Virus record (IMG/VR): IMGVR_UViG_3300023178_002130
Coordinates: 1-44,924 of that record
Origin: a virus
DNA: 44,924 nt
Reading direction: 5' to 3' (one strand)
Part shown: piece by piece, positions 6,326 through 44,924 of the stretch
Numbering within the stretch: the stretch's first letter is position 1
Layout of the letters: each line of letters opens with the position of its first letter
Notes under the pieces: generated by a model
What the model was told of the DNA's origin: nothing
What the model saw: the letters and a program-made list of their open reading frames with translations, nothing else
Database searches by the model: none
Program-made: the position numbers and the translations under genes

Positions 6326-6333
6326 CTATTTAT
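6326..6333 (-). promoter_or_regulatory. T4-late-like promoter box
   Basis: Minus-strand GCATAAATAG ends only five bases before the ATG at 6321 and contains the TAA stop of uvsE. A transcript from it would be nearly leaderless. Confidence 0.35.
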
Positions 6334-16574: not shown

Positions 16575-16650
16575 TGGTGGAGCCGACAGGGGTCGAACCT
16601 GCGACCTACTGGATGCAAACCAGTCGCTCTCCCAACTGAGCTACGGCCCC
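16575..16650 (-). tRNA. tRNA-Ala (TGC)
   Basis: 76 bases with encoded CCA (16575-16577). Seven-pair acceptor (one G-U), a TTTGCAT anticodon loop, GTTCGAC T-loop and a normal D arm. Confidence 0.97.
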
Positions 16651-16652
16651 TA

Positions 16653-16787
16653 TCATAGATATTTACCTACCAAAAAACCTAAAAGAAATATGAACCAATC
16701 AAATACAAAATGCATCAGAAACGAAATTGCAAAAATTTCTTTCCAGTGTACTTTACAGATATCTAACCATTCTGCTATCTTTTTCAT
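16653..16787 (-). CDS. Small membrane protein, 44 aa
   Basis: Begins MKKIAEWLDICKVHWKE and continues as one hydrophobic helix of about 25 residues (FAISFLMHFVFDWF then a Leu/Phe-rich end). AGGAAG lies before the ATG at 16787. It sits alone between tRNA-Thr and tRNA-Ala, with only two bases to the tRNA-Ala end. Clear amphipathic start and single span; function unknown. Confidence 0.7.
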   Translation of the reverse strand: MKKIAEWLDICKVHWKEIFAISFLMHFVFDWFIFLLGFLVGKYL

Positions 16788-16802
16788 ACTTCTTCCTATA
16801 AA

Positions 16803-16878
16803 TGGTGCCGGATGTCGGATTCGAACTGACGACCTACTGATTACAAATCAGTTGCTCTACCAACTGAGCTAATCCGGC
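16803..16878 (-). tRNA. tRNA-Thr (TGT)
   Basis: 76 bases with encoded CCA. GCCGGAT/ATCCGGC acceptor, TTTGTAA anticodon loop, GTTCGAA T-loop. Confidence 0.97.
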
Positions 16879-16883
16879 GTAAC

Positions 16884-17246
16884 TTACTCTACATTACTTA
16901 GTGGTGTATCTTCTTCCAAATCATCAAACTTGGTTTTGACAAAATCTGATGCAATCATTTTTACATCTTTTCCAGACGCTCTCATTTCCATTTCAGCCTC
17001 GAAGACTTTCTTTAAACTTCCGGGCCCTTCCCAAATATCGTTCATAACTTCGTTGATTTGATCTAACGACACTCTTCGAATTCTTGCTTGACCAAAATAA
17101 TGTTGCAAAAAACCAATTAAAGCTTCTGGAATTAATCTATGGTCTGAAAAAGCCCATGTACCATTAAAACCATTTACTGAATAAGGGTTGTCGATATCTT
17201 TGTTGTGAAACTTCATTCTATCTTCAACTGATCTTAATTCTAACAT
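16884..17246 (-). CDS. Hypothetical protein
   Basis: 120 residues, mixed alpha, charged, no membrane segment; central AFSDHRLIPEALIGFLQHYFGQ and an acidic tail. TAGGAG lies before the ATG at 17246. It has its own sigma-70-type promoter (17270-17297) and sits inside the tRNA cluster, so it and the two downstream tRNAs may share a transcript. Family not recognised. Confidence 0.7.
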   Translation of the reverse strand: MLELRSVEDRMKFHNKDIDNPYSVNGFNGTWAFSDHRLIPEALIGFLQHYFGQARIRRVSLDQINEVMNDIWEGPGSLKKVFEAEMEMRASGKDVKMIASDFVKTKFDDLEEDTPLSNVE

Positions 17247-17269
17247 ACATACTCCTAATTAAAAAACAC

Positions 17270-17297
17270 ATTATAACACATATTTTGTCAATGTCAA
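17270..17297 (-). promoter_or_regulatory. Sigma-70-type promoter
   Basis: Minus strand: GG then TTGACA (17292-17297), 16-base spacer, TATAAT (17270-17275). A second TTGACA overlaps the spacer (17286-17291) but is too close to use. Confidence 0.8.
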
Positions 17298-17302
17298 CCA
17301 TT

Positions 17303-17376
17303 TGGAGCGGGATACGGGAATCGAACCCGTCTCGTCAGCTTGGAAGGCTGTCATAATACCACTATACCAATCCCGC
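17303..17376 (-). tRNA. tRNA-Gly (TCC)
   Basis: 74 bases with encoded CCA. GCGGGAT/ATCCCGC acceptor, CTTCCAA anticodon loop. Confidence 0.97.
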
Positions 17377-17380
17377 AATC

Positions 17381-17470
17381 TGGCGGAGAGTGAGGGATTC
17401 GAACCCTCGATACAGTTGCCCGTATAACACCTTAGCAGGGTGCCGCTTTCGACCACTCAGCCAACTCTCC
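17381..17470 (-). tRNA. tRNA-Ser (GCT)
   Basis: 90 bases with encoded CCA and a long variable arm as expected for Ser. GGAGAGT/ACTCTCC acceptor, CTGCTAA anticodon loop. Confidence 0.96.
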
Positions 17471-17473
17471 TAA

Positions 17474-17535
17474 AGTATACACTCCCAGTTTATCAGTCTG
17501 TTGCAAGTTGCTATACTTCCTGCAGAGTGTATACT
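17474..17535 (-). repeat. 11-base perfect inverted repeat in the Ser/Glu tRNA spacer
   Basis: AGTATACACTC (17474-17484) pairs perfectly with GAGTGTATACT (17525-17535), with 40 bases between them. In the precursor RNA this could fold into a long-looped hairpin spanning almost the whole spacer between the two tRNAs. There is no U-run, so it does not look like a terminator. Processing signal or small RNA are the options. Confidence 0.5.
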
Positions 17536-17539
17536 ATCT

Positions 17540-17614
17540 TGGTAGCCCGTAGGAGAATCGAACTCCTGTTGCATGGATGAAAACCATGTGTCCTAACCAC
17601 TAGACGAACGGGCC
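17540..17614 (-). tRNA. tRNA-Glu (TTC)
   Basis: 75 bases with encoded CCA. GGCCCGT acceptor, TTTTCAT anticodon loop, GTTCGAT T-loop. Confidence 0.96.
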
Positions 17615-17624
17615 ATAATTTTTT

Positions 17625-17698
17625 TGGCAGGCGAACAAGGAATCGAACCTCAGTTTACAGTTTTGGAGACTGTCGTGTTACCACTACACCATTCACCC
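17625..17698 (-). tRNA. tRNA-Trp (CCA)
   Basis: 74 bases with encoded CCA. ACAGT-CTCCAAA-ACTGT anticodon arm; acceptor GGGTGAA/TTCGCCT with one G-U pair at the end. First tRNA after the promoter at 17709-17737. Confidence 0.93.
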
Positions 17699-30397: not shown

Positions 30398-30474
30398 TGG
30401 CGCGGCTGAAGAGATTCGAACTCCTGACCCTTGGTTTCGTAGACCAATGCTCTATCCAGCTGAGCTACAGCCGC
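30398..30474 (-). tRNA. tRNA-Arg (ACG)
   Basis: 77 bases with encoded CCA. GCGGCTG/CAGCCGC acceptor, TTGGT-CTACGAA-ACCAA anticodon arm, GTTCGAA T-loop. Just 12 bases after its promoter. Confidence 0.95.
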
Positions 30475-31215: not shown

Positions 31216-31777
31216 TAACTTCCTTTTTTACAATTACACTATCAAACGCAATACTAAATCTTGCGTTGCTACTTTCCTCACTGTGGGCAACAAAGTGCCA
31301 CATCCAAGACGGAAATACTAAAAGTAAATCAGACTTAGGTGGAATGAATAATTGTTCGCTGTTAAAACTGTTAAAGTTTTTTATGTGTTCGGGTCTAATA
31401 ACATGTGCTAGTTCATGGTTAGGACTTGTAAATCCTAGCGGGCTAGAATTTTCGTCAGCCTGTGGATAATAGACAGCTGAAAAGAATGCCCCTGGATGCC
31501 TATGCATCCTTGTAATTGACTGATTGCAAAAACTGTTGACCCAGAACTGTTTGATACGCTGTTCGTAATCGTCGCTAAATTCTAACTTTGTGTGTAGCTC
31601 GTCTAAGAACTGTGTAATCTTTCCTCCTAGTTCGAGGAAAACAGATTCACCTGGGTCAACAAAAATTCCGTCATTATCTTTTACTCGCTCTTTACAAAAC
31701 TCTATAAGTGCTTCTCTATTTGATACACCTAATTCTTTGTAGGCGATAAAATTAGTAAAGACTGAATCAATCTGCAT
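31202..31777 (-). CDS. 2OG-Fe(II) oxygenase (TIGR02466-like)
   Basis: 191 residues. RMHRHPGAFFSAVYY is the HxD/HxxG-type metal segment; LLVFPSWMWHFVAHS followed by NARFSIAFD gives the distal His and Arg. Closest in this window to the oxygenase at 15963-16550. Joined by a one-base overlap to the peroxiredoxin gene upstream, so oxygen-using and peroxide-removing enzymes share a transcript. Confidence 0.85.
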   Translation of the reverse strand: MQIDSVFTNFIAYKELGVSNREALIEFCKERVKDNDGIFVDPGESVFLELGGKITQFLDELHTKLEFSDDYEQRIKQFWVNSFCNQSITRMHRHPGAFFSAVYYPQADENSSPLGFTSPNHELAHVIRPEHIKNFNSFNSEQLFIPPKSDLLLVFPSWMWHFVAHSEESSNARFSIAFDSVIVKKEVNESS

Positions 31778-32334
31778 TAACTTGCTTTCAAGTATTCGAG
31801 TATAGCTTCTGGGGAAGTTTCACCGTATGGATCAGTTGGACAGTTATCTTCTTGTCCTGGTTCAACAAATGCTTTTTCAACTACTCCGTCGTTTACAACC
31901 ATAGCATAGCGCCATGAACGATTGCCAAAGCCTAGATTGTCTTTGCATACAAGCATACCCATCTTTTCAGTAAATTCGCCTGTACCGTCTGGAATGAATT
32001 TGATCTTTTTAACTTCTTGATCAATCATCCATTTACGCATTACAAACGTATCATTAACACTGATAACATAAATGTCATCTACATTTTGTGCAATAATATC
32101 GTCATATAAATCTTCGAAACCGGGAACTTGGTAGGTTGAGCATGTTGGTGTAAATGCACCAGGTAGTGAAAACACTACAATTCTTTTACCATCAAAAATG
32201 TCTTTTGTATTGACAGTTTTCCAATCAAATGGATTTTCGTCTCCATTGTCTTTGTTAACATAAGTGATAGGGAACCCGTCTGTTCTAACTCTATACTTAA
32301 AATCAACTTCAGGTAGTTGCATACCTTCTTTCAT
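31777..32334 (-). CDS. Peroxiredoxin (Prx5-like)
   Basis: 185 residues, start at 32334 with AGGAG upstream. FSLPGAFTPTCSTYQVPG carries the peroxidatic Cys65; a late NCPTDP has a second Cys (about 167) that may resolve the disulfide. The AMVVNDGVVEKAFVE region fits Prx5. Reduces peroxides, probably protecting the infected cell under light or oxidative stress. First gene of a run with two 2OG oxygenases. Confidence 0.93.
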   Translation of the reverse strand: MKEGMQLPEVDFKYRVRTDGFPITYVNKDNGDENPFDWKTVNTKDIFDGKRIVVFSLPGAFTPTCSTYQVPGFEDLYDDIIAQNVDDIYVISVNDTFVMRKWMIDQEVKKIKFIPDGTGEFTEKMGMLVCKDNLGFGNRSWRYAMVVNDGVVEKAFVEPGQEDNCPTDPYGETSPEAILEYLKAS

Positions 32335-32350
32335 TAATTTACTCCTAATC

Positions 32351-32380
32351 AAAAAAAAATGTTAGTAAGGCACTAACATT
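32351..32380 (-). terminator. Terminator-like hairpin in the peroxiredoxin leader
   Basis: Minus-strand AATGTTAGT-GCCTT-ACTAACATT (32358-32380), a nine-base perfect stem with a five-base loop, followed by nine U residues counting the stem end. It lies between the promoter (32384-32412) and the gene's AGGAG, starting close to the expected transcription start. It could end antisense read-through from 33 kb, act as an attenuator, or cap the message. Confidence 0.65.
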
Positions 32381-32629: not shown

Positions 32630-32908
32630 ATGGAGTTTTTAAAATTAGTAGGCGAAGTAGGTTTTCCTATCGCAGGTGCTCTTGCATCAGGCCTATTTGT
32701 TTTTATTACACTTAGATTTATTTTAGACAGTGTTACGGGTTCTGTAAATGGTTTAAAAGGCATGATTAGTGCTTTAGATAACCGTGTGCAAACTATGAAC
32801 AACGATCTAGTTAAAATAGATACACTTATGAGCTATGCACTTAGCGTAAAACCAAATGTAGATAGAATCGCCGCTAATGAAGGCAAAGAGGACGCAAGGA
32901 GAGATTAA
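32630..32908 (+). CDS. Membrane protein of the GFPI pair (A), holin-like
   Basis: 92 residues. An N-terminal VGEVGFPIAGALASGLFVF span (about residues 7-30), then a helix with SALDNRVQTMNNDLVKIDTLM. The order, a GFP motif in a membrane span followed by a short DN-containing helix, is repeated in the protein at 33123-33503. It looks like BhlA/holin-type small phage membrane proteins by topology; the role is not established. AGAGGG precedes the ATG. Confidence 0.7.
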   Translation: MEFLKLVGEVGFPIAGALASGLFVFITLRFILDSVTGSVNGLKGMISALDNRVQTMNNDLVKIDTLMSYALSVKPNVDRIAANEGKEDARRD

Positions 32909-33133
32909 ATGTTATGGGTAGACTATAATATAGAACAGGGGTCAAACGGTAGTTTTACTATAAGAGGTGAATGGCCCGGTGAAGTTATGGGCAAAGCGCA
33001 AGATGGTTCACCAAAAGACCATTACCTTTACAAACCTGGTGATGTTTTTATAGTAAATGAAGCAGGTTGGTTAGTTAGAGTAGACCAACTTACTAGCATG
33101 GTAATAGGACACGAGCATAAGGATGAGTTCTAG
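32909..33133 (+). CDS. Hypothetical small protein in the GFPI cassette
   Basis: 74 residues, beta-rich and soluble (SFTIRGEWPGEVMGKAQDG; KPGDVFIVNEAGWLVRVDQL). Starts one base after the stop of the first membrane gene and overlaps the second by 11 bases, so all three are translated in series. Not recognised. Confidence 0.7.
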   Translation: MLWVDYNIEQGSNGSFTIRGEWPGEVMGKAQDGSPKDHYLYKPGDVFIVNEAGWLVRVDQLTSMVIGHEHKDEF

Positions 33134-33503
33134 TATAGTAGAAGCAATTAATCAATATGGTTTTCCAATCATTGCTGCCATGGGTCTTGGTTATTTTGTC
33201 TTTTACGTTTGGAAATGGGTTACTACTGAAATCAAACCAGTATTAGGTGAAGCTAGTAGTACATTAATTGCTCTTATTGACAGAATTCGTATGTTAGACA
33301 ATGATATGATTCGTTTAACACAAAAAATTAATATGGTTTTAGAATTCAAAGAGCAATATGAAAAAATTACAGGTAAAAGTTTAGACTTAGATGTAAGCGA
33401 AATAGAAGAAATTATAGATAAGGATTATAAAAATGTTTCAACAGAGCAAGTGGAGCAAGTGGTACGAAAGCCAAAACGAAACAACAAAAACGTGGCTAGA
33501 TAA
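33123..33503 (+). CDS. Membrane protein of the GFPI pair (B), holin-like
   Basis: 126 residues. INQYGFPIIAAMGLGYFVFYV (about 9-29) is the membrane span, then a helix with LIDRIRMLDNDMIRLTQKINMVL, parallel to the protein at 32630. A longer acidic then basic tail ends RKPKRNNKNVAR. Likely a paralogue or hetero-oligomer partner; a channel or holin role is inference. Confidence 0.7.
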   Translation: MSSSIVEAINQYGFPIIAAMGLGYFVFYVWKWVTTEIKPVLGEASSTLIALIDRIRMLDNDMIRLTQKINMVLEFKEQYEKITGKSLDLDVSEIEEIIDKDYKNVSTEQVEQVVRKPKRNNKNVAR

Positions 33504-33600
33504 TCAAGCTATATGGCATGACAAAGATATGGTAATATCTGGTTGTGTTGGTTTTGTAATTGGTGTACTGTTTGGAATAGTTATTTCGTTGTCGCTATAA
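33433..33600 (+). CDS. Small single-span membrane protein overlapping gene B, 55 aa
   Basis: Begins MFQQSKWSKWYESQNETTK and ends in one span (VISGCVGFVIGVLFGIVISL, then SL). It starts 71 bases inside the 3' end of the previous gene in another frame and overlaps the opposing cyclase gene by 20 bases. The Trp-rich head and clean C-terminal span look real; it lacks a strong ribosome site. Confidence 0.55.
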   Translation: MFQQSKWSKWYESQNETTKTWLDNQAIWHDKDMVISGCVGFVIGVLFGIVISLSL

Positions 33601-35632
33601 AGACGCCGTTCCAATCTTTAGGTAGGTCTTGAGTTTTCATATACTCGCAACGTTCTATCCACATTTTATAGTAACCTTCCATTTTAGCATCAAAGTGTCT
33701 TTTTAATCTCTCACAAATCCAAATTGCTTCATCAAACTTTTGAGCTCTATATGCTTCATGCATTCTATCATGCATTTCCTTGCTTTTAAGCTGTGCAGGT
33801 GTTCCTTTTAAATCTAGAACAGTATGTATTCCTATACCTACACTTTTTCCTTTTACAGCAAGATCATCTACTTTCAAAAAGAACCAATCTTTTTTGCACT
33901 GTTTAACTGTTGCTTCTCCAACAAGTAACAAGCATCCGTACTCTTTACATTTGGATTCAATTCTAGCCGCTGTTGAAACTGAATCTCCTAAAACATCATA
34001 AGAATGTCGCTTTGTACTACCCATTTCGCCAAGGTAACCCAAGCCGCTATTAATGCCAGCACCCATACCGATGGGAGGTCTACCTTCTTCTTTGAGCGTT
34101 TCATTAAATTTCTCCACAGCCTTTAACATGCGTAATCCTGTATCCACGGCTGTATCTGGATGATCAGGATCGTCAGTTGGTGCATTATGAACGTGCATAC
34201 TTGCGTCACCGATATATTTGATAACCATACCATTTGAATCAAGTATAGGCTGTGTAATAGCGTCCATGTAGCCATTCATTATTTGTGTTAAGCCTTTTAC
34301 ATCATCTCCAAAACTTTCACCTAATGGTGTAAAGCCACGCAAGTCCGAAAAGCAAATACTAATCTCACGCTTCATACCGTCTTTAATAAGTGCAGGATTT
34401 TCTTGTAGCATACGCACTACAGTTGGAGATGCATATCCTGCAAATTGTTTTTTAATTGCTTGCTTTTGAAAATACTCTGATGTAAATCTATTGAATACAG
34501 CATGTAAACTTACTAGTACAAACGCTAATATAGGCATTGTTACATCTAGTAAGTATAAGTACTCTTGCCACGCATATAAAGCGCCGTACGCTAGTCCTCC
34601 TGCAACTACTAGTATAGTTATACCTACAGCCCAAAAAGGCGCAAGCGTAGCAACTACAATAGCAAGTAAACTTACTACCGCTGTTGTTGCTAATTCTGCT
34701 AGATCAGACCAAAATGGTCTTTGTATTTGGTCGCCATCTAATACAGTTTGTAGTGTTACAGCAGCAGGTATGTAATTATATTGTGGTCCTGTAGGACTTG
34801 CAATAAAGCCACCTAATCCTTCTGCTGTTAATCCTAACACAACCGTGCGACCAGCAAACTGACTATAGTCGTCACTGGCCGCACTAATCGTGTCAAACTT
34901 TTTATTCCAACGTAACCAAATTTGCCCGTTAGGATCTGTGCTGATTATAGGATATCCAGGTACCCTAACTTTTTCAACACCACCTTCATTTGCCTTTATT
35001 TGATATGAAGGTGCCTGTGTGGCAAGTCTAATTACCTCTACAGCGAGTGACGGATACGTATCTTCTCCAATACGCATAATCAAGGGTACTCGGCGTACTA
35101 CACCATCCACCTCAGGTGCTGTATTTAAAACGCCCACACCCCCGGCATTTTGACCTAGTAGAGGAATAGGGCCCAACATGCCTGGCCATTCAAACAGAAA
35201 TGGCAATGGGTCGCCTATTTTAGCAACTCCGCGAGGAACGGAATTTTTGTTGACAGATGTAGTTCCTGTTTGTGCAATAACTACACCATTATCTGCAAGT
35301 GCATCGGCTAATACTTCGTCTCCACCTAGTCTATCAGGTTCTGAGAAAAGTATAGGTATTACAATAATACCTGCACCTGCTTCTCGAAGCTTCCAGATTA
35401 TATCTGCTAAGACATCTCGCTTCCAAGGCCATTGACCGTACTTTTCAATAGCGGCTTCGTCAATAGCAACAATGCCAATATCTTGGGAGGTAGTTGGCTG
35501 ATCTGTGTTTTGAAGTAGATCAAATTGCTTCAGCCGAGCTGTTTCCACTATAGTGCTATTCCCATAGTGTAACATAAAAATTACAAGGGCCGTAATAATA
35601 CTTACAGACCAATGTGTGATCCACTTGCTCAT
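33581..35632 (-). CDS. CHASE2-domain class III nucleotide cyclase
   Basis: 683 residues. An N-terminal membrane helix (about 8-24), an extracytoplasmic CHASE2 sensor (about 30-300; GIVAIDEAAIEKYGQWPW, GVGVLNTAPEVDGVVRR), three membrane spans (about 313-380), then a class III cyclase domain. Metal Asp430 (FSDLRGFT) and Asp476 (YIGDAS) are present; Lys472 and Asp546 fit adenine specificity; Arg557 is kept, but the usual Asn of GDxVN is Ser553 (GDSVSTAAR). A TPR-like helical tail follows. It would make cAMP in response to a periplasmic signal if active. A TATAAATACG box sits directly before the ATG. Confidence 0.92.
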   Translation of the reverse strand: MSKWITHWSVSIITALVIFMLHYGNSTIVETARLKQFDLLQNTDQPTTSQDIGIVAIDEAAIEKYGQWPWKRDVLADIIWKLREAGAGIIVIPILFSEPDRLGGDEVLADALADNGVVIAQTGTTSVNKNSVPRGVAKIGDPLPFLFEWPGMLGPIPLLGQNAGGVGVLNTAPEVDGVVRRVPLIMRIGEDTYPSLAVEVIRLATQAPSYQIKANEGGVEKVRVPGYPIISTDPNGQIWLRWNKKFDTISAASDDYSQFAGRTVVLGLTAEGLGGFIASPTGPQYNYIPAAVTLQTVLDGDQIQRPFWSDLAELATTAVVSLLAIVVATLAPFWAVGITILVVAGGLAYGALYAWQEYLYLLDVTMPILAFVLVSLHAVFNRFTSEYFQKQAIKKQFAGYASPTVVRMLQENPALIKDGMKREISICFSDLRGFTPLGESFGDDVKGLTQIMNGYMDAITQPILDSNGMVIKYIGDASMHVHNAPTDDPDHPDTAVDTGLRMLKAVEKFNETLKEEGRPPIGMGAGINSGLGYLGEMGSTKRHSYDVLGDSVSTAARIESKCKEYGCLLLVGEATVKQCKKDWFFLKVDDLAVKGKSVGIGIHTVLDLKGTPAQLKSKEMHDRMHEAYRAQKFDEAIWICERLKRHFDAKMEGYYKMWIERCEYMKTQDLPKDWNGVFIATTK

Positions 35633-35635
35633 AAC

Positions 35636-35644
35636 GTATTTATA
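35636..35644 (-). promoter_or_regulatory. T4-late-like promoter box of the cyclase gene
   Basis: Minus-strand TATAAATACGTTATG, a complete late box four bases before the start codon. The TAA stop of the 34-aa upstream gene lies within it. The transcript would be leaderless or nearly so. Confidence 0.55.
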
Positions 35645-35744
35645 ACATAGATAATGCTATTAAAAAGCCAATGTTCAACCCAATTGAACAAGTAAATGCA
35701 AAGTCTTTCCAATAGTTATATTTTACGTATTCATATTCTTCCAT
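35640..35744 (-). CDS. Tiny membrane peptide, 34 aa
   Basis: Begins MEEYEYVKYNYWKDFAF and ends in a hydrophobic C-terminus (CSIGLNIGFLIALSML), a tail-anchored topology. AGG lies eight bases before the ATG. Lies between the coiled-coil gene and the cyclase, overlapping the former by 14 bases. Function unknown. Confidence 0.5.
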   Translation of the reverse strand: MEEYEYVKYNYWKDFAFTCSIGLNIGFLIALSML

Positions 35745-36039
35745 TACTTTTGCCTATTAGTTTTGCTTTGAGAGCATTCATTTCTGTTTCTCTGCTTGCT
35801 CTTTCAGGTGCTGAACCCAAGTTCGTTTCCTTAATACGTGCTTCCTCGGGTTTGCGTATATTTCTGGGTGTCGAATAACGATTAAGTCGTCTGTTCTGTT
35901 CTGCAATTCTTCTTCGGATATCTCGAACTTTGGCTTCAAGATCCAAGGTATTATTTTCTCTGTCATGAGTTGCCCTTTCTGCGACTGTGTTTGTCGCGCC
36001 CATATTTCTACAAATGATTTTACACAACCATTCCCTCAT
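35731..36039 (-). CDS. Charged coiled-coil-like protein
   Basis: 102 residues, rich in Arg and Glu with heptad-like DLEAKVRDIRRRIAEQNRRL (about 33-52). The ATG follows an AATAAATACAGC box. Another frame (35778-35966) also looks protein-like, but this frame has the A/T-biased third positions of the rest of the genome whereas the other does not. Function unknown. Confidence 0.6.
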   Translation of the reverse strand: MREWLCKIICRNMGATNTVAERATHDRENNTLDLEAKVRDIRRRIAEQNRRLNRYSTPRNIRKPEEARIKETNLGSAPERASRETEMNALKAKLIGKSNGRI

Positions 36040-36042
36040 GCT

Positions 36043-36050
36043 GTATTTAT
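36043..36050 (-). promoter_or_regulatory. T4-late-like promoter box
   Basis: Minus-strand AATAAATACAGCATG before the ATG at 36039, just past the stop of the 34-aa gene. Confidence 0.45.
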
Positions 36051-36051
36051 T

Positions 36052-36156
36052 TTATAAGATCCCTAGGAAGGCTAGCCTAAGTAGTAAGAGCCAGGTTACT
36101 ACGCATACTAGTAACCATAAGTAATGTCTATAAGTTGTGTCCTTATAGTGCCACAT
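36052..36156 (-). CDS. Tiny membrane peptide, 34 aa
   Basis: Begins MWHYKDTTYRHYLWLLVCVV and is almost wholly hydrophobic afterwards (Trp/Leu-rich, ending AFLGIL). GAGGG lies five bases before the ATG and an AATAAATAC box before that. Placed right after the second curlin gene. Function unknown. Confidence 0.5.
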   Translation of the reverse strand: MWHYKDTTYRHYLWLLVCVVTWLLLLRLAFLGIL

Positions 36157-36171
36157 GAATGCCCTCTATGT

Positions 36172-36179
36172 GTATTTAT
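36172..36179 (-). promoter_or_regulatory. T4-late-like promoter box
   Basis: Minus-strand AATAAATACACATAGAGGG: the box is followed by the ribosome site of the 34-aa gene starting at 36156 and lies just after the curlin stop. Confidence 0.5.
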
Positions 36180-36180
36180 T

Positions 36181-36849
36181 TTAGTTGTTTCTGTTTACAA
36201 TTACTGTGCAACCATTTGCGTTTGCACAATAACCAGTTATACTAAAACTATCAGCACTTGTAGTAACATTTTGAGTAAGAGTGTAGTTGTATGCTCCACC
36301 CGAGTTTGTTAAATCTATTGCGGCGCTTGCTGAGTTACTTCCTCGTTGATTTACGTCTACACTGTGTCCGTCACCTGTAAGAACTATGTCTGCCCATTTT
36401 TGTCCACCATTACCTCGTTGGTATAAATCTACTGTATTAGAATCGCCTTGTATTTCTATGAATCCGTCGTGTCCTGCCTTGCCCATCTGAATGTGTTCTA
36501 CTGTATTACTGTCACCATTTACTATATTTGCTAAATGATGTGGTGATCCTCCTCCTCCGTCTCTGTTGGTGTCTGTTTGATAACTGGCTACTGTGTTTCC
36601 ATCTCCAGTCACAGTCCAGTATGCTTCGTGTCCGCCAGTTTCGTCTCCGTCATAGGTGTTATCGTCGTGTATGCCTTGACGTATAGTAATATTATTGTTT
36701 GGACCTGTAGAATTTAAACTTATGTAGTTGTCTTCGCTACGTTGTTGTATTTCTAAATTAAGATTATCACCACTTTGTGTAATATAGATTTCATTTGCAA
36801 ACGCAGCTTGTGTTAAAAGTATTGTAAATATTCCTAAATAATATTTCAT
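36181..36849 (-). CDS. Curlin-like secreted amyloid protein (B)
   Basis: 222 residues. Signal peptide (KYYLGIFTILLTQAAFA, cleavage near residue 18), then ITQSGDNLNLEIQQ, an almost exact match to the start of the other curlin. Repeats of GD(S/G)NTV...QxG type follow at about 18-25 residue spacing (TGDGNTVASYQ, NGDSNTVEHIQMG, QGDSNTVDLYQRG, TGDGHSVDVNQRG). Such Asn/Gln repeats stack as beta-helical amyloid in CsgA/CsgB. Starts by ATGA overlap with the FecR-like gene. A secretion partner (CsgG/CsgF) is encoded in the same run. Confidence 0.85.
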   Translation of the reverse strand: MKYYLGIFTILLTQAAFANEIYITQSGDNLNLEIQQRSEDNYISLNSTGPNNNITIRQGIHDDNTYDGDETGGHEAYWTVTGDGNTVASYQTDTNRDGGGGSPHHLANIVNGDSNTVEHIQMGKAGHDGFIEIQGDSNTVDLYQRGNGGQKWADIVLTGDGHSVDVNQRGSNSASAAIDLTNSGGAYNYTLTQNVTTSADSFSITGYCANANGCTVIVNRNN

Positions 36850-37994
36850 TGGTTTTGTTGTATGTCAATCTCATTAGACCCTGCACCCACTCTATAATCT
36901 AATATTGACTCTCCTTGTTGTTCCATTGTTATTATATAACCATATTCTTGGTTTAATCTTAATTGCAAATAATTTGTTAATCCTGCATCTGATCTTGATA
37001 CAAAATAGTTTGGGTCTTCTTTTTCAAATGTAATTCTAGTTTCAGGATCGTACCCAAATTTTTGTTCTGCAAAAAATTGTTCTGTTTGTATATCTAATTC
37101 ATTCCTAAATAATTGAGCTAATTGTGCATTTAGTTGATCAATCATATCATGTAATAATTCGCCTAAATAGTAATCAGTACCTCGCATTAAATCAGTTACC
37201 CAAATATCTTTTATGCTATCATTTAATGCGTCTGCGTCAAGATCATCAAACTCTAAATAATCGATATCTAAAAATTCAAATTGTTCTCGTTGTTTTTTTG
37301 CTAGTTCAAGCTCTTCCTCATCATAAGGAGAACGCTTTCTTAGTATTAACAATGTGCCAATTTGTTTTTCGTCTAAATCTAGTATAAGTGGTTTTGTAGG
37401 TGCTTGATAAGAAGTTTTTATCTGTGTAGTTTGGAAGGCCTGATTCATAATAACAAAACCTGTATCACTTTCAACAGATATTTCTCCTGTTACACACACT
37501 CCATCCTCGTCACAACTAGGCAACAGTGTTACCATGGTTCCGCCAATTTCATCTACTAACATGATAAAGTCAGTTCCCCTAACACCAATAGTGGCACTAG
37601 GGGTTCTGATTTTTACATTTTGTTGATATCGTTTTGCTATCTGCCCACTTGCATAACGTACTGTTCCTAATGATGCTTTTAAACTTATAGAACCTACATT
37701 ATTTGAAGGATCATATACAAATTCATCAATTAGTAATCTACTATGCTCTGTAAGATCGACTCTAGTTTCATCAACGAAATCTATTCTCATAGTTCCTTTT
37801 GCTGTAACAGCCGTATCCATACTTTGGACATTAACTCCAGTGTCACCTGGAATAACCTGATTCTCCCTTTCTAGTACACCAGAACCCTTTATTTCGCCTA
37901 TTGAACCTGCATCAGGCACGGCAAAAGCCGGCAAACTAGAAAGTGCCAGTATGACAAATACTGTTCTATTAATCAGATTGCGTAATGTCAACAT
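36846..37994 (-). CDS. FecR-domain secreted protein
   Basis: 382 residues, start at 37994 chosen because it opens a signal peptide (FVILALSSLPAFA, cleavage near 25); the longer frame begins with TTG inside the curlin gene. The FecR domain spans about residues 30-200: GSIGEIKGSGVLERE, MDTAVTAKGTMRIDF, ASLGTVRYASG and KIRTPSATIGVRGTDF. The remainder is acidic and helical with an elongated tail. FecR domains here are probably cell-surface or fibre-binding rather than iron signalling. It sits between two curlin genes in the same transcript. Confidence 0.85.
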   Translation of the reverse strand: MLTLRNLINRTVFVILALSSLPAFAVPDAGSIGEIKGSGVLERENQVIPGDTGVNVQSMDTAVTAKGTMRIDFVDETRVDLTEHSRLLIDEFVYDPSNNVGSISLKASLGTVRYASGQIAKRYQQNVKIRTPSATIGVRGTDFIMLVDEIGGTMVTLLPSCDEDGVCVTGEISVESDTGFVIMNQAFQTTQIKTSYQAPTKPLILDLDEKQIGTLLILRKRSPYDEEELELAKKQREQFEFLDIDYLEFDDLDADALNDSIKDIWVTDLMRGTDYYLGELLHDMIDQLNAQLAQLFRNELDIQTEQFFAEQKFGYDPETRITFEKEDPNYFVSRSDAGLTNYLQLRLNQEYGYIITMEQQGESILDYRVGAGSNEIDIQQNQ

Positions 37995-38670
37995 CTTGAT
38001 TGTCGCCACTAAATGTTGCTTCAATTACATTATCACCTAAACCACTTTGAGTAATATCATAAGTACTGCCGCCGCCTGTTACATCAAGGTTAATAGTGTG
38101 ACCATTAATATCGCCGTCACCATCTACATCAATTGTAAAAGTATTTCCTGTGGCTGCTAAACTTGCTGAATTATCACTTACAAGTGTAAGTGCTACACTT
38201 GCACCGTCTACGTTTGTAGTTATAGTGTTTCCATCGCCGTCAATAGTAAAGTTTGCTACTAGGTTTTGTGCATCTGCACTTTCACCAATGTAAATGTTAA
38301 ATGCATTACTATCGCCGTTTGTTGTGATATTTGCTGTAACAGTTTCACAGTTTGTTCCGCTTGTTTGGTCACAAGACATATCAACTGTATTGCTGTTACC
38401 TATGAAACTCCAAGTACCAGTGTAAGTATTGCCTTTGATGTTAGCAGCTATCGTGTTAGAATCACCTTGCTGGGTAATACTAAAAGTCATGTCATCACCA
38501 TCAAGGTTAACATCTGTAGTAGAGTTACCTATCTGGTTATTAGAACCATCCTGTACAATATCTAAGTCTAAGTTATCTCCAACTTGCGTTATATAGATAT
38601 CGTTAGCAAAAGATGGTGCTGCTACCATTAAAAGCCCGACTATCGCTGTGCTTTTAATTATGTTTTTCAT
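37969..38670 (-). CDS. Curlin-like secreted amyloid protein (A)
   Basis: 233 residues. Signal peptide (TAIVGLLMVAAPSFA), then IYITQVGDNLDLDIVQDG, paralleling curlin B. Repeats such as QQGDSNTIAAN, IGNSNTVDMS, NGDSNAFNIYIG and DGDGNTITTNV, and a C-terminal GLGDNVIEATFSGDNQDVDITQ. One Cys pair (CDQTSGTNC). GAGGG lies seven bases before the ATG. It probably builds the fibre with curlin B. Confidence 0.85.
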   Translation of the reverse strand: MKNIIKSTAIVGLLMVAAPSFANDIYITQVGDNLDLDIVQDGSNNQIGNSTTDVNLDGDDMTFSITQQGDSNTIAANIKGNTYTGTWSFIGNSNTVDMSCDQTSGTNCETVTANITTNGDSNAFNIYIGESADAQNLVANFTIDGDGNTITTNVDGASVALTLVSDNSASLAATGNTFTIDVDGDGDINGHTINLDVTGGGSTYDITQSGLGDNVIEATFSGDNQDVDITQSD

Positions 38671-38673
38671 TTT

Positions 38674-39546
38674 TTAGCCCTCTTCTGAAACTTCCGTATC
38701 AGTTATATTTGTTTGTTCATCTGTTGTTTCAGAAGTCGTTTCTTGTACAAATTTCCATAAACCATTACGTTCGCCCTCGTAAATAAGTTCAATAACACCT
38801 TGTTCAACCGCCGCTCTCACAGCATAGTTGACTGGCTCGTTTACTGAAAATCCTGCTTCTGTTTCAACTAATCTAGTTCCCATATCAAGGAACTTGAATA
38901 TGTCCGCTCCGGATCTATAGCTTGCGATTGTTTTTTCTGTCGCAATGCTCATTAACACTTTCCCTGTGCTAACGCTTACAAGACGCATTACAACAGTTAC
39001 CGTATCAACACGATATTCTGTTTGTAATCCTATCCCTAGATATCTTGCGCCTGCACCTCCGACTGCCGTATTACTGTCGTAACCAACAATGCCACCCTCA
39101 AGTATTAAACCTGCAAATAACATCGGCTTTAAAGGTGTAGGTCCATTTGGAAGTTCTCTTTCATAAACTTCTCTTGTTTGCCTAATCAATTGCCTTTCTT
39201 TAATTAAATTGTCCATGCCTACACGTTCAACAACTTCAAACCATGTCGAGTTGCCAACGTCTTGTAGTGCCTTAATTACCCAAACTTCGCTTCCTTGTGT
39301 AACAGCACTACTTAAACTGGCTACCATGTCTGATGGTTTTCTCTGTCCTGTTTTATCACTAAACTGATATACAGCAATAGTAATTTTAGGCCCATCGAGG
39401 TTTGGTACGTCTTCTAATCTGTCTTGTACAGGACTATCCTGTATTTTAGGCGATGTAGCATGATCCTCCAGTATCTGTAAGGCCGGAGTCATAGCACATC
39501 CTCCTAAAAGAAGTGTTAAAAGAAATATGATGCCTGCTAGTCTCAA
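38674..39546 (-). CDS. csgG: CsgG-like outer-membrane secretion channel lipoprotein
   Basis: 290 residues. Signal peptide with lipobox LLGGC (Cys17), then the CsgG body: ITIAVYQFSDKTGQRK, SSAVTQGSEVWVIKALQD, WFEVVERVGMDNLIKERQLIR and GGIVGYDSNTAVGGAGARYLGIG, with MRLVSVSTGKVL near the end. CsgG is the nonameric channel that exports curlins. The start is TTG at 39546, overlapping the csgF stop (TTGA) with GGGGAG upstream. The C-terminal 25 residues are Thr/Glu-rich and unlike E. coli. Confidence 0.93.
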   Translation of the reverse strand: MRLAGIIFLLTLLLGGCAMTPALQILEDHATSPKIQDSPVQDRLEDVPNLDGPKITIAVYQFSDKTGQRKPSDMVASLSSAVTQGSEVWVIKALQDVGNSTWFEVVERVGMDNLIKERQLIRQTREVYERELPNGPTPLKPMLFAGLILEGGIVGYDSNTAVGGAGARYLGIGLQTEYRVDTVTVVMRLVSVSTGKVLMSIATEKTIASYRSGADIFKFLDMGTRLVETEAGFSVNEPVNYAVRAAVEQGVIELIYEGERNGLWKFVQETTSETTDEQTNITDTEVSEEG

Positions 39547-40013
39547 AAGTTAAACTCCCCTAATCCGGGAATTGTAATTTCTGTAACTGACCCATCTTCT
39601 CCAGTAATAGTAAGTGTAATACTTCCTGTTACTGTATCTTTAATCCATGAAATAGTATTACCTTCTACTTCTGCCGTACCTGTATTAGCACAGGTATCAC
39701 CGCAATCGGCAAACATCGCATCGACCATCTGTTTAGATAGTGTTGCATATATTCTACTTTCTAAATTTCTAATGAATTTGTTTAGGACGGAATTTTCAAG
39801 TTCTCGTTCAATACGAGCTGCTTCTGCTTCTGCTTCTTTTCTTAGCTCTTGTTTTCTATTGTGTTGAAGTTGCTCCACACTTAAAACATGAGTAGAGTAG
39901 CCGTTACCATAATGGAAAGCAGGGTTCTTGAATTTCCAGGTTAGTTCTGTTGCACCCACTGGGGAAAATCCTATTAGTGTTCCTAAAAGTGCAAATTGAA
40001 TAAGTTTTTTCAT
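39543..40013 (-). CDS. csgF: CsgF-like curli assembly factor
   Basis: 156 residues. Signal peptide (IQFALLGTLIGFSPVGA), then TWKFKNPAFHYGNGYSTHVL, the CsgF N-terminal segment that plugs the CsgG pore. GGAG lies five bases before the ATG at 40013. A helical middle (EAEAARIERELENS) and a beta C-terminal segment (NTISWIKDTVTGSITLTI) follow; a Cys pair (CGDTC) is unusual. First gene of the curli run after a late-type promoter. Confidence 0.88.
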   Translation of the reverse strand: MKKLIQFALLGTLIGFSPVGATELTWKFKNPAFHYGNGYSTHVLSVEQLQHNRKQELRKEAEAEAARIERELENSVLNKFIRNLESRIYATLSKQMVDAMFADCGDTCANTGTAEVEGNTISWIKDTVTGSITLTITGEDGSVTEITIPGLGEFNF

Positions 40014-40057
40014 ACATACTCCGTTGCGAACGCCCTCACGCTCTGTTAACATTACTA

Positions 40058-40075
40058 CCGTATATATTTATACGG
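40058..40075 (-). promoter_or_regulatory. T4-late-like promoter of the curli locus inside a palindrome
   Basis: CCGTATA-TATT-TATACGG is a perfect seven-base inverted repeat (40058-40075) that contains the minus-strand TATAAATA box (40065-40072). Both a promoter box and an operator-type palindrome therefore coincide, 45 bases before csgF. Confidence 0.6.
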
Positions 40076-41143: not shown

Positions 41144-41851
41144 TTATATAGAGTATTTATCTATTTTAGGAAACAACATGTCGGTGCAGAACTTTTCTAC
41201 GTCTGCTTCATTGAGGCCTAGAGTTTTCATTACCCTAGGAGTGTGTGGATTCTGTTGCTGATTTTCACAGTAATAATTCTGTGCAGCTAGAGTCATATAT
41301 TTGTCGCCGTAGCCCATAAAGTTAGGTACTTCTTCAAACCATGCTTGTAAATTTGCGATAGCCAAATCTATAATTTCTACAGCCTCTTCTTCAGTAGTAA
41401 CATTGCCTGCAGCAATCATGCTATCTGAAAATATATTTTGTGCCCATTCAGGCAATTCTCTTTTCTTACTTGGTATGAAGTCTTTTACAGCATCACGGTA
41501 CCCATCTATCATAGGATGGTTATCTCCGCCACTACTTGCTGAAAAATCATGAAAGGCTCCTGTCATTTTGCGTTTTCCTGCAATAACATCAAAGCCATAT
41601 ATGGGTGCATCGTTATCTAGTGTAGGAAAACAGCATACATGCATCATCCATAAGCCTTTTGATTCACGTGCATCTACAACATCTATATGTGCTCTACGTA
41701 CATAGTTGTTTGCCCAAACTCTGTTTATCCATCCGTTCTCTGGTTGATTAAAATGGGCTAATCCTGGCTCTTCGATTTCAGTAGCATGTTTGTCAAATAT
41801 TTCTAGTATTTGATTCTGACACTCAATCAGTCTGTTCCATATAATGCTCAA
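41144..41851 (-). CDS. pcyX: Ferredoxin-dependent bilin reductase (PcyX-like)
   Basis: 235 residues of the FDBR family, which reduces biliverdin with electrons from ferredoxin. Core segments: AHIDVVDARESKG (Asp57 where PcyA has a catalytic Glu), WMMHVCCFPTLDN (His71, the PcyA-type His) and PIYGFDVIAG (Asp88), then GAFHDFSASSGG. A His at that position points to PcyA/PcyX rather than PebS; PcyX is known from uncultured marine phage. The start is TTG at 41851 with GGAG upstream, coupled to the heme oxygenase gene. Together they could make a bilin from heme. Confidence 0.9.
   Translation of the reverse strand: MSIIWNRLIECQNQILEIFDKHATEIEEPGLAHFNQPENGWINRVWANNYVRRAHIDVVDARESKGLWMMHVCCFPTLDNDAPIYGFDVIAGKRKMTGAFHDFSASSGGDNHPMIDGYRDAVKDFIPSKKRELPEWAQNIFSDSMIAAGNVTTEEEAVEIIDLAIANLQAWFEEVPNFMGYGDKYMTLAAQNYYCENQQQNPHTPRVMKTLGLNEADVEKFCTDMLFPKIDKYSI
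41153..41160 (-). promoter_or_regulatory. T4-late-like promoter box
   Basis: Minus-strand GATAAATACTCTATATAAGG: the same leader string as at 5015. It is made from the last codons and stop of the bilin reductase gene. Confidence 0.6.
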
Positions 41852-42389
41852 TATCTAACTCCATAAGCTCTTTAAAGAGCTTTGTACTTGATTCAAAAAC
41901 AAACTTTGCTTCTTCTGCCATATCATCGTTAATTTTTGATCTAATCTTTTCTTTAAGTTCATTTGTATCGCCGTCAAAGTTATACATTCTTCCTTGTCCG
42001 GGTATACGTTTACTTATTATTTGTCCGCCACTTAAATCTCCCATATGGAGAACATATATATGAGCCATTACCTTATTTGGATCAGACATTATCGTTTTCA
42101 TATGTCCTAGATATTCGTTTGTACTTTCGACTATTGGCGGTGGTAGTTGATTATTCCAAAGCTCAAGATAGTCTTCATGAATAGCGTTTTTCCTGCGTAT
42201 TTCAAACAAGTCATCTAGCAAGCCATGCACATTCGCAATAGCTTCTAGCACGTCATATTTTTTATGTTGATTCCAAAGGTAAGTTGCATAGAACTGTGGG
42301 TTAATTTTTCCACTCATAAGAACTTTGACAAACTCTTGTCTTTCTGCTTCTTTGTGGTGTTCCCAAGTAAGTTCTTTAATTTTTGTCAT
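41823..42389 (-). CDS. ho1: Heme oxygenase
   Basis: 188 residues. LTWEHHKEAE near the N-terminus carries the proximal heme ligand (His12 of HxxAE), and IYVLHMGDLSGGQIISKR is the distal helix with the conserved Gly pair. Converts heme to biliverdin, the substrate of the bilin reductase encoded just downstream; the genes overlap by 29 bases. Follows clpS with an ATGA overlap. Confidence 0.95.
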   Translation of the reverse strand: MTKIKELTWEHHKEAERQEFVKVLMSGKINPQFYATYLWNQHKKYDVLEAIANVHGLLDDLFEIRRKNAIHEDYLELWNNQLPPPIVESTNEYLGHMKTIMSDPNKVMAHIYVLHMGDLSGGQIISKRIPGQGRMYNFDGDTNELKEKIRSKINDDMAEEAKFVFESSTKLFKELMELDIEHYMEQTD

Positions 42390-42697
42390 TCATCAGCTTC
42401 TTCTAACTTAATCTGTAGTGGAAATCCTTTGTTCCTACTTGCTGTAGTCGCTTCAGTTGCTTTTATTTCTGCAATTTCGTAGGAATAAATTCCAACTATT
42501 CCACTTCCTTCTGTATGTATCTGCATTGTAAGTTCTTCTGCAGATAATTGACTGTGTCTAAAGATATTTGTTAGAAGGAATACTACCCACTCCATTGGAG
42601 TTTGTTCGTCATTAAGGAACACTACTTTATACTTGCTAGGCTCTTTAATTTCCTGTGTAATTTTTTCGTCTAATTTTATATCTAAATCTACTGACAT
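42386..42697 (-). CDS. clpS: ClpS-like Clp protease adaptor
   Basis: 103 residues. YKVVFLNDEQTPMEWVVFLL, SAEELTMQIHTEGSG and GIYSYEIAEIKATEATTASR fit ClpS, which binds N-degron proteins and delivers them to ClpAP. The N-terminal extension is short. It is far from clpP (18 kb away), and no ClpA is in the window, so a host ATPase would be needed. GGAG precedes the ATG. Confidence 0.93.
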   Translation of the reverse strand: MSVDLDIKLDEKITQEIKEPSKYKVVFLNDEQTPMEWVVFLLTNIFRHSQLSAEELTMQIHTEGSGIVGIYSYEIAEIKATEATTASRNKGFPLQIKLEEADE

Positions 42698-42718
42698 CTT
42701 TTATTCACTCCAATAAAT

Positions 42719-42739
42719 GGGGGAGTGTAATACTCCCCC
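42719..42739 (-). terminator. GC-rich hairpin between hsp20 and clpS
   Basis: GGGGGAGT (42719-42726) / ACTCCCCC (42732-42739), an eight-base perfect stem with a five-base loop. On the minus strand it follows the hsp20 stop and is followed by ATTTATTGG rather than a U-run, so it may be a partial terminator or processing site. Confidence 0.55.
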
Positions 42740-42747
42740 TAGACTAG

Positions 42748-43212
42748 TTACTTCTCGCTAACTTCGCCGTCGATAGTAAGACCGTCATTGATCTTAATTT
42801 TCTTAGGTTGTAGCTCTTCTGGAACTTCACGTTTCAAGTGAATGTTCAGCATACCTAGTTCAAGACCAGCGTTTACAACGTCAACGTGGTCAGCAAGTGT
42901 AAATTCTCTACGGAATGAACGACCGCCAATTCCTTTGTGTAGATAGTTTACATCGTCGTCCCCTTTTGGAGCTGTACCTTCAATTTTCAAAGTGTTTTTA
43001 TCTTTTTCAATTGAAAGGTTGTCCATACCAAAGCCAGCAACCGCTAACGAAATCATATATTCGTCATCGTTGATCTGTGCAATGTTGTATGGGGGATACC
43101 CTTGACCTTTTGCTGAGTTTTCAAATATTCTATCCATCTCATTAAAGATGTTATCGAACCCTACAAAATGTCTGTGAATTGAGGGTAAGTCTAAGGTTGT
43201 TATTCTTGTCAT
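42748..43212 (-). CDS. Hsp20/small heat-shock protein
   Basis: 154 residues, start at 43212 with AAAGGAG upstream. The alpha-crystallin domain spans about residues 40-130: ISLAVAGFGMDNLSIEKDKN, GIGGRSFRREFTLADHV and GMLNIHLKREVPEE; the C-terminal tail lacks a clear IXI motif apart from IKIND. Holds unfolded proteins and is common in T4-like marine phages. Has both a sigma-70-type and a late-type promoter and a structured leader. Confidence 0.95.
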   Translation of the reverse strand: MTRITTLDLPSIHRHFVGFDNIFNEMDRIFENSAKGQGYPPYNIAQINDDEYMISLAVAGFGMDNLSIEKDKNTLKIEGTAPKGDDDVNYLHKGIGGRSFRREFTLADHVDVVNAGLELGMLNIHLKREVPEELQPKKIKINDGLTIDGEVSEK

Positions 43213-43308
43213 AGTTTTCTCCTTTATTAAGCAAGATTTATATAAAGAGTCCCTAATGGGCACTCCACCTTTAATGTATTGGGGAGAATCAATCTCCCCT
43301 CTACACTT
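43213..43308 (-). ncRNA. Structured 5' leader of hsp20
   Basis: About 96 bases between the late box and the ATG. It contains a GGGGAGA/TCTCCCC hairpin (43281-43299) and a second GAGT(G)CCC/GGGACTC stem (43247-43265). The UUCUCC in the first hairpin is a perfect complement of the GGAGAA at the ribosome site (43217-43222), so the leader could mask it. An RNA thermometer is a hypothesis, not shown. Confidence 0.35.
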
Positions 43309-43919: not shown

Positions 43920-44924
43920 TTAGATAACAAAGGTTAGTAATCCTGCTGTTCCACATAACATGAATGCCCAAGATCCTAATGCTTTGTAATATACCCTATA
44001 GGGTGTTCCGAAATATCGATTACCTATCATTACGCACTTGTGCGTAGGCGATAGCAAATACCCTGCGTAGTCTATAGCAAAAAACCATAAGAAATATTCC
44101 ATTCCAAACAGTTGTGCTAGTAGAACAGCGAAAGCAATAAACTTTCCGCTACTACCCATTAAGAAACTTGCCGCAAAACCAATAGCAGAAATACTCAACA
44201 TACCAATTAAGGTTGTTGGATCAAACGCACTGTCTGTAATTAGTGCCTTAAACTCTGCTTCGTTGGCTTTAAAATAGTTGCCTAGTACAATTACAACACC
44301 TACAACAATAAGTACTTCCCAATTAATGTAACTGAGAATTTTCTTATAATTCCAAGTTGTTGTAATTAACATATAGTACAATGCTAATAATCCAAAACTC
44401 AAGTAATAGTTGTTGAATGCAATATAACTTGCAATAGCAACAATCATAGGAAACACATTACGTGTAACCGCACTCATTTTGAACTTGGTTGGTGTAATTA
44501 CTACATCATCTTCGTGTACCTGTGTCCAGATATACCAACCTATGAATAGTAATGACACAGCAAGTAGAGGCCATATCATAGCCATCCATGCACTAAATGT
44601 CAAACCAAATGCCGCAATAGGTAGGATAACTGTTTTCTCTAGCGGAGACCATAGATAATAATGGTGTGTTGCTAGATAGTCAACTATTCCCATCTTTTGG
44701 CGTCCTGGACCATCTTTAGGCGCAACAGTATCTAGCAAACCTGCTGACACTGTAACACGACCTGAGATAGGTAACACGCCGCCAATTGCGGAAAGGATAA
44801 CTAGGACGAATCTATTTGAGCGGAAGACATTTCTTACGTAGGCAAAAACAGGGGCAAAGAGTTGATGCTCTTTTGCTAGTCCCGCACTGATCATAACGAA
44901 GACAATCATCCATAGGTAGCCTAA
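43920..44924 (-). CDS. Integral membrane permease, DUF401/ion-transporter-like (5' part cut by window edge)
   Basis: At least 330 residues, with no stop up to the right edge, so the N-terminus is missing (in-frame LGYLW precedes the first internal ATG). About nine hydrophobic spans. GGVLPISGRVTVSAGLLDTV and ASFLMGSSGKFIAFAVL look like the paired re-entrant motifs of ion-transporter-superfamily permeases, and YLLSPTHKCVMIGNRYFG resembles the SPxHxC motif of the DUF401 family. Substrate unknown. The downstream barrel protein follows after 14 bases, suggesting an inner- and outer-membrane transport pair. Confidence 0.75.
   Translation of the reverse strand, partial: LGYLWMIVFVMISAGLAKEHQLFAPVFAYVRNVFRSNRFVLVILSAIGGVLPISGRVTVSAGLLDTVAPKDGPGRQKMGIVDYLATHHYYLWSPLEKTVILPIAAFGLTFSAWMAMIWPLLAVSLLFIGWYIWTQVHEDDVVITPTKFKMSAVTRNVFPMIVAIASYIAFNNYYLSFGLLALYYMLITTTWNYKKILSYINWEVLIVVGVVIVLGNYFKANEAEFKALITDSAFDPTTLIGMLSISAIGFAASFLMGSSGKFIAFAVLLAQLFGMEYFLWFFAIDYAGYLLSPTHKCVMIGNRYFGTPYRVYYKALGSWAFMLCGTAGLLTFVI

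Follow-up and report, generated by a model that had tools for sequence, protein, structure and literature searches.

A curli-type module and its genes

The DNA analysed here, from an ocean virus of bacteria (IMG/VR record IMGVR_UViG_3300023178_002130, positions 1 to 44,924, referred to below as the window) carries a curli-type secretion module in which csgF, csgG, a first curlin gene (curlin A), a gene for a FecR-domain protein and a second curlin gene (curlin B) follow one another on the minus strand as a compact block at 40052-36181. A preliminary description of this DNA had recognized the five-gene run, with its signal peptides or lipobox and its short overlaps, and had proposed that these curli-type genes serve a surface role; gene calls bear out the former and Pfam content supports both. 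Overlooked in that description were further module-linked genes, for a nucleotidyl cyclase (33581-35632) and a pair of small transmembrane (TM) proteins (32630-33503).

Within the block, csgF (39543-40052; Pfam CsgF, 1.2e-13) likely has its true start at Met14, at 40013 (MKKLIQF...), where a GGAG precedes it, and overlaps csgG by 4 bp. The csgG gene (38674-39546; Pfam CsgG, 1.9e-49; solved E. coli CsgG, 7.7e-51) is predicted to encode the outer-membrane lipoprotein pore, with the lipobox LLGGC, and lies 3 bp from curlin A (37969-38670). The FecR-domain gene (36846-38024; Pfam FecR, 6.9e-9; phrog_37870) can start at TTG 38024 or ATG 37994 and, depending on this choice, overlaps curlin A by 26-56 bp, while its overlap with curlin B (36181-36849; Pfam Curlin_rpt, 3.4e-10) is 4 bp. 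CsgF, both curlins and the FecR-domain protein open with signal-peptide-like segments, and the last of these is predicted to be secreted and probably periplasmic. The sixth module gene, also on the minus strand, encodes a 683-amino-acid (aa) CHASE2-class III nucleotidyl cyclase (33581-35632; Pfam CHASE2, 9.3e-42; Guanylate_cyc, 1e-15). On the plus strand lie the genes for TM proteins A (32630-32908, 92 aa; phrog_18771, 4.7e-29) and B (33123-33503, 126 aa; phrog_18771, 2.6e-33), paralogues that each have one hydrophobic segment and a coiled-coil-like tail. Between them is a gene for a 74-aa protein (32909-33133, plus strand) that has relatives in 52 loci and zero Pfam or PHROG matches.

The curlin assignment rests on families as well as on single sequences. 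Curlin A alone (0.0049) falls short of the Pfam cut-off, and 20 of its 33 orthologues match Curlin_rpt (best 6e-10); the curlin A and curlin B family profiles are homologous (99.8% probability, 2.4e-30). In addition, the curlin A model (pLDDT 83) finds its best partners in BFVD, a library of viral structures, among phage proteins labelled 'Curlin associated' (1e-8 to 1e-5), and tail fibres gave no significant match there; comparisons with PHROG, Pfam and BFVD gave no structural or profile match of the curlin repeats to tail-fibre families. The possibility raised in the preliminary description, that the repeats belong to virion fibres, is not borne out, because curlin A is structurally most like curlins. 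Among relatives curlin A keeps a steady length of 228-264 aa, and curlin B spans 196-484 aa, a spread that might be expected of an exposed part of a fibre.

The pore-binding N-terminal pattern of CsgF, FK.P.F.GNGYS.H.LS.EQL, is kept across 25 phage homologues, and a search of solved structures with the single CsgF sequence gave zero relevant matches. Compared with the csgBAC/csgDEFG system of E. coli, the phage module shares homologues of CsgG and CsgF as well as curlin repeats, but it lacks CsgE and adds FecR and the cyclase. The eyelet residues Tyr51 and Phe56 of E. coli CsgG are replaced in phage CsgG; phage-specific remodelling of the eyelet was considered and rejected because cellular alphaproteobacterial CsgG has identical replacements.

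Conservation among phages

When window CsgG was used to fetch loci from IMG/VR, csgG was followed by a curlin gene in all 80 of the loci obtained, FecR came next wherever the contig was long enough, and the cyclase was present in 54, most of the others ending short of it. Median ratios of nonsynonymous to synonymous substitution rates (dN/dS) were 0.11 each for csgG, curlin A, FecR and the cyclase, 0.19 for csgF, between 0.11 and 0.19 for TM protein A, 0.31 for TM protein B and about 0.26 for curlin B, the fastest-evolving of the exported proteins. These values indicate that all parts of the module are under purifying selection and maintained as proteins. A 102-aa open reading frame (ORF) separating curlin B and the cyclase (35731-36039, minus strand) occurs in 13 loci only, at variable positions; it and a 346-aa ORF were rejected as module members for their patchy occurrence.

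The order csgF-csgG-curlin-FecR-curlin-cyclase is found in the window, in IMG/VR loci, in HTVC008M and in the records of Methylophilales phage Melnitz, so the link among the five genes that the preliminary description had drawn is conserved in relatives. The full arrangement with paired curlins and FecR, which it had singled out as worth study, is not new, since this order has been published for pelagiphage myophages and podophages (PMC9599517); CsgF and CsgG of pelagimyophages (PMC7029224) and the Melnitz genes (PMC9004378) have also been published. The module of HTVC008M, pelagimyophages and HTVC023P-type podophages, which is missing from their SAR11 hosts, comprises the same genes, in this order (PMC7029224, PMC9599517). 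In Melnitz the TM pair stands immediately upstream; the Melnitz paper states that csgA/B are lacking and proposes a pinholin (PMC9004378), whereas the Melnitz record annotates curlin-repeat proteins. The curli module is real, most of it has been published, and it belongs to a wider pattern. Judged by the libraries searched, the new elements are its linkage to the TM pair, a variant with a type I secretion system (T1SS), a lineage with the module in a lysis cassette, and a cellular Hyphomonas locus.

A linked pair of transmembrane proteins

The TM pair lies directly upstream of csgF on the same strand in 29 loci and just beyond the cyclase on the opposite strand in 27, including the sister contig of the window, and the loci without it are cut contigs or an unrelated Brevundimonas locus. 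Among 50,697 phage records, matches are confined to HTVC008M and four Melnitz records. The linkage also holds when the pair itself is the query: 145 loci were fetched by the TM pair alone, independently of CsgG (a set that partly overlaps the CsgG-fetched one), and 142 of them contain two copies. Either csgF or csgG is visible in 93 of the 145, in many others the cyclase is reached before the contig runs out, and every locus of this set with 5.5 kb on both sides has at least one module gene. Among 147 assemblies of the SAR11 family the pair is present in exactly those three that have phage-type CsgG, and it is found in none of 299 genomes of the Hyphomonas order. No Pfam family matches the pair above the cut-off. 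In the window, a 55-aa ORF with a C-terminal hydrophobic segment (33433-33600, plus strand; no family match) overlaps the 3' ends of the TM protein B and cyclase genes.

The podophage module of pelagiphages has been described with a 'histidine kinase (HK), sometimes two' before csgF (PMC9599517). No kinase was found before csgF, and in 29 loci that place is taken by the TM pair, whose members, at 90-126 aa, are too short to be histidine kinases. The published podophage 'HK' genes may correspond to the TM pair. The window differs from the podophage arrangement in that its pair is downstream on the other strand rather than before csgF.

A type I secretion variant with the same proposed controller

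Two loci that combine the TM pair and the cyclase with zero csg genes have a type I secretion set as neighbours: HlyD (1.9e-17), a TolC-like protein (3.8e-51), an ABC-like membrane protein that has no ATPase domain, and a 1310-aa adhesin in which a FecR domain at the N-terminus (1.6e-7) is combined with a cadherin domain. The FecR part of this adhesin and the FecR-domain protein of the window both belong to phrog_37870. A scan with the TolC-like protein retrieved 13 marine phage contigs (labelled L363-L375, L252 and L319), all with the order TolC-ABC-HlyD followed by the cyclase; the TM pair is in view in 12 of the 13, and the FecR adhesin precedes wherever the contig extends to it. Phage exonuclease and other phage families surround one such locus. 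The variant has zero matches in phage records, and no published description of it was found in the literature library searched. With its HlyD, TolC-like protein and giant adhesin with an N-terminal FecR-family domain it resembles LapA-type systems, from which it differs in that the phage ABC-like protein has no nucleotide-binding domain and a cyclase and TM pair are added.

As two different exporters of adhesive proteins have FecR, the CHASE2 cyclase and the TM pair in common, their shared job would be adhesive surface display, and the swap of a curli for a type I exporter is the strongest evidence that the module displays a surface protein. FecR, cyclase and TM pair would then form its controller. 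We tentatively propose that these three constitute a portable control unit for unrelated exporters, one that may monitor export and signal by cyclic nucleotide. In two other loci (L231 and L295) the available stretch contains the TM pair and the CHASE2 cyclase but lacks both csg and T1SS genes; these may represent further variants of the controller.

Precedents exist for the partners of such a unit. The biofilm-regulating (BiofilmReg) operon of Burkholderia pairs FecR with a CHASE2 sensor (PMC5192318), as does the phage module, the CHASE2 protein of Burkholderia being a histidine kinase; in Sinorhizobium, CHASE2 cyclases respond to a protein signal via an outer-membrane barrel (PMC13001267; also PMC5498481), a coupling that the phage module resembles. 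Unlike the phage module, both of these systems are without curli genes. The model of the window FecR-domain protein resembles the FecR-type signalling domains of PupR (2.3e-4) and BDI_1681, and its beta domain weakly resembles an adhesin anchoring domain (5ix9, 0.028). The earlier suggestion that FecR anchors or caps the fibres therefore stays a lead, based on this weak likeness and on the fusion of a FecR-family domain to the adhesin of the T1SS variant. A curlin-like C-terminus of the FecR-domain protein is unsupported by profile comparison (2.9% and 1.1%).

Late expression and a lysis-cassette lineage

A T4-late-type box, TATAAATA, matches exactly at 40065-40072 on the minus strand, 51 nt upstream of the likely csgF start. 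The motif is unenriched across the window (four copies against 5.9 expected), but each of the four lies shortly before an annotated start on the minus strand. In relatives, the exact box precedes csgF in 15 of 79 cases against 1.3 in shuffles, an approximately tenfold enrichment, and it was found zero times before csgG, curlin A and FecR, a distribution that fits one late transcript. A second copy 5' of the cyclase (35637-35644, minus strand) ends 5 nt from the cyclase ATG, and is doubtful as a promoter because the ATG is closer than an ordinary late promoter would allow.

A second lineage, represented by L199 and 14 IMG/VR contigs, has the module inside a lysis cassette: where the contig permits, it is followed by genes for Rz (2.7e-11), Rz1 (1.1e-10), a nuclease and lysozyme (1.1e-49), and then by those for terminase and portal. 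The order in these contigs (L199 and L204-L217) is TM protein, TM pair, csg genes, cyclase, Rz, Rz1, SNase, lysozyme and terL. The late-like box at the head of the run and the late-type expression read from it in the preliminary description thus gain from relatives and from this nesting, and late expression is well supported by the sequence evidence; a role in lysis does not follow from timing alone.

What the module may do for the phage

Studies of phages that infect the ocean's most abundant bacteria have left the role of phage-borne curli unsettled. Our best reading, held with moderate confidence, is that the module is a late-expressed system that displays adhesive surface fibres on the infected cell, under the portable control unit of FecR, CHASE2 cyclase and TM pair. 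Late in infection, curlins would cross the inner membrane by the Sec pathway and exit via the CsgG/CsgF pore to build up amyloid-type adhesive fibres on the surface of the infected cell, with curlin A as the constant and curlin B as the variable, exposed subunit. In the periplasm, secreted FecR may anchor fibres or monitor them after export, and it would act on the cyclase through CHASE2; the TM pair would serve as inner-membrane partners of this relay, and the cyclic nucleotide would report or limit export status. The phage would most likely gain by making infected cells and debris aggregate with or adhere to new hosts, or by shielding the cell from rival phages.

Several observations weigh against this reading. 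Fibre, secretion and cyclase activity are all predicted, and clumping was not seen in Melnitz-infected cultures (PMC9004378). The curlin A model had nothing below 0.001 in a Foldseek comparison with solved structures. In the cyclase of the window and 49 relatives, Ser553 replaces the usual transition-state Asn, a residue retained in HTVC008M, Hyphomonas and a few other cyclases. Only 5 of 61 Pelagibacter genomes encode a domain that binds cyclic nucleoside monophosphates (cNMPs), and HTVC008M, Melnitz and the 99.6-kb sister contig all lack one. CsgE was not found in the window, as the preliminary description had stated, nor in HTVC008M, Melnitz or the Hyphomonas genome. The type VIII secretion system (T8SS) of alphaproteobacteria is reported to lack CsgE (PMC9599517), and the module is a T8SS of this alphaproteobacterial and pelagiphage type rather than of the E. 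coli type, for which the CsgE gate is a defining component.

As to the signal itself, the metal-binding residues D430 and D476, the adenine-site residues K472 and D546, and R557 are all conserved; with the catalytic residues kept except for the Asn, cyclase activity is likely but not certain. In two loci (L001 and L055) the catalytic part of the cyclase is of a different lineage from most relatives and the CHASE2 part is shared, which suggests domain exchange. It has been proposed that cyclic AMP (cAMP) acts through CsgD-type control (PMC9599517), a proposal to which the scarcity of cNMP-binding domains lends little support; the same scarcity leaves little support for cAMP acting through a CRP-type receptor of host or phage.

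Among other explanations, superinfection exclusion alone is an option already named in the literature (PMC9599517), in which a fibre coat or pore proteins block the receptors of rival phages and adhesion plays no part. The fast evolution and variable length of curlin B and the exchangeable surface proteins would fit an exposed surface in an arms race, but late expression is late for exclusion, and we consider this account on its own unlikely, although no direct evidence tells it apart from adhesion.

We find it improbable, too, that the module times lysis, with the CsgG/CsgF pore or a holin-like TM pair permeabilizing the envelope, the cyclase as timer and the curlins as plugs or leftovers, an account that takes up the pinholin idea (PMC9004378). 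The late box before csgF and the nesting of the module between a TM protein and Rz/Rz1-SNase-lysozyme in the second lineage would agree with it, as would weak matches of TM protein B to the holin family phrog_4898 (0.0047 in the window, 0.0011 in the second lineage). However, purifying selection acts on the curlins and FecR just as it does on the pore, the T1SS variant keeps cyclase and TM pair without a csg pore, the module is not beside lysis genes in annotated myophages, and the loss of Tyr51 and Phe56 from the eyelet, being common to cellular alphaproteobacterial CsgG, is not a phage adaptation. That the module provides an outer-membrane exit for virions, as the preliminary description had ventured, is unsupported, given that virions far exceed the CsgG pore in size (PMC7029224). 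Uptake of siderophores, cobalamin or other molecules through an ungated CsgG pore (proposed in PMC7029224 and PMC9599517) would suit the absence of the CsgE gate and the derivation of the FecR name from control of iron transport, but it is very improbable, as it leaves CsgF, two conserved curlins and the swap for a type I adhesin exporter unexplained and as FecR is secreted and accompanied by a CHASE2 cyclase instead of a FecI sigma factor or TonB receptor.

That one exporter can take the place of the other while cyclase and TM pair stay favours surface display over a pore or lysis device, and FecR, CHASE2 cyclase and TM pair are three named partners whose interactions are directly testable. 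If such a relay exists, this would be, to our knowledge, the first case of virus-run periplasm-to-cytoplasm cyclic-nucleotide signalling for a secretion system, and the control unit would signal in cells otherwise mostly without cyclic-nucleotide signalling.

Cellular relatives and misassigned contigs

A 705-kb cellular contig of Hyphomonas sp. TMED17 (L157) contains csgF-csgG-curlin-FecR-CHASE2 cyclase in the same order, the only such case among cellular T8SS loci with 10-kb flanks; Sphingomonadales and other cellular T8SS loci are without FecR and cyclase there. This locus differs from the phage module in having a single long curlin, no TM pair and a cyclase with the usual Asn. It indicates that FecR and the cyclase can belong to a cellular curli operon, which modifies a published statement (PMC9599517). 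The CsgG tree places the protein of Hyphomonas among phage proteins on a long branch, a position that fits Hyphomonas as either donor or recipient, and no second case was found by CsgF score in several hundred sampled alphaproteobacterial genomes.

CsgG is present in 3 of the 147 SAR11-family assemblies, two of which were read and proved to be phage contigs, and class III cyclases are likewise present in 3 of 147; that curli genes or class III cyclases are native to SAR11 was rejected, as the two assemblies common to both are phage contigs. Module-bearing phage contigs were also found binned into bacterial assemblies of Rhodobacteraceae, Flavobacteriaceae, Pelagibacter, Synechococcus and others (L085-L091, L127, L143, L153, L199 and L200), and such misbinned contigs give rise to erroneous host assignments and mistaken claims of 'cellular curli'. 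L003 and four related Brevundimonas jumbo phages carry a distant CsgG-like gene that stands alone, with no csgF, curlin or cyclase detected near it. The record OR851715.1, filed as Salmonella phage S.Kent 1-2-1 and 1499 bases long, has a csgG-like frame and no annotation, and is probably mislabelled bacterial DNA.

Other genes of the window

Directly upstream of the module, at 41144-42389 on the minus strand, are genes for heme oxygenase and a PcyX-type bilin reductase. This pair is upstream of the curli module in approximately 36 of the 80 IMG/VR loci, a late-type box lies 5' of heme oxygenase in 9 of the 36, and no published report of a linkage between bilin and curli genes was found. Elsewhere the window encodes a UvdE-type ultraviolet endonuclease (6330-7463), a phosphomannomutase-like protein (7439-8212), a peroxiredoxin (31777-32352), ClpS and Hsp20 (42386-43263) and a DUF401 membrane protein (43920-44909), and it carries seven tRNA genes (Ala, Thr, Gly, Ser, Glu, Trp and Arg) on the minus strand at 16575-17698 and 30398-30474.

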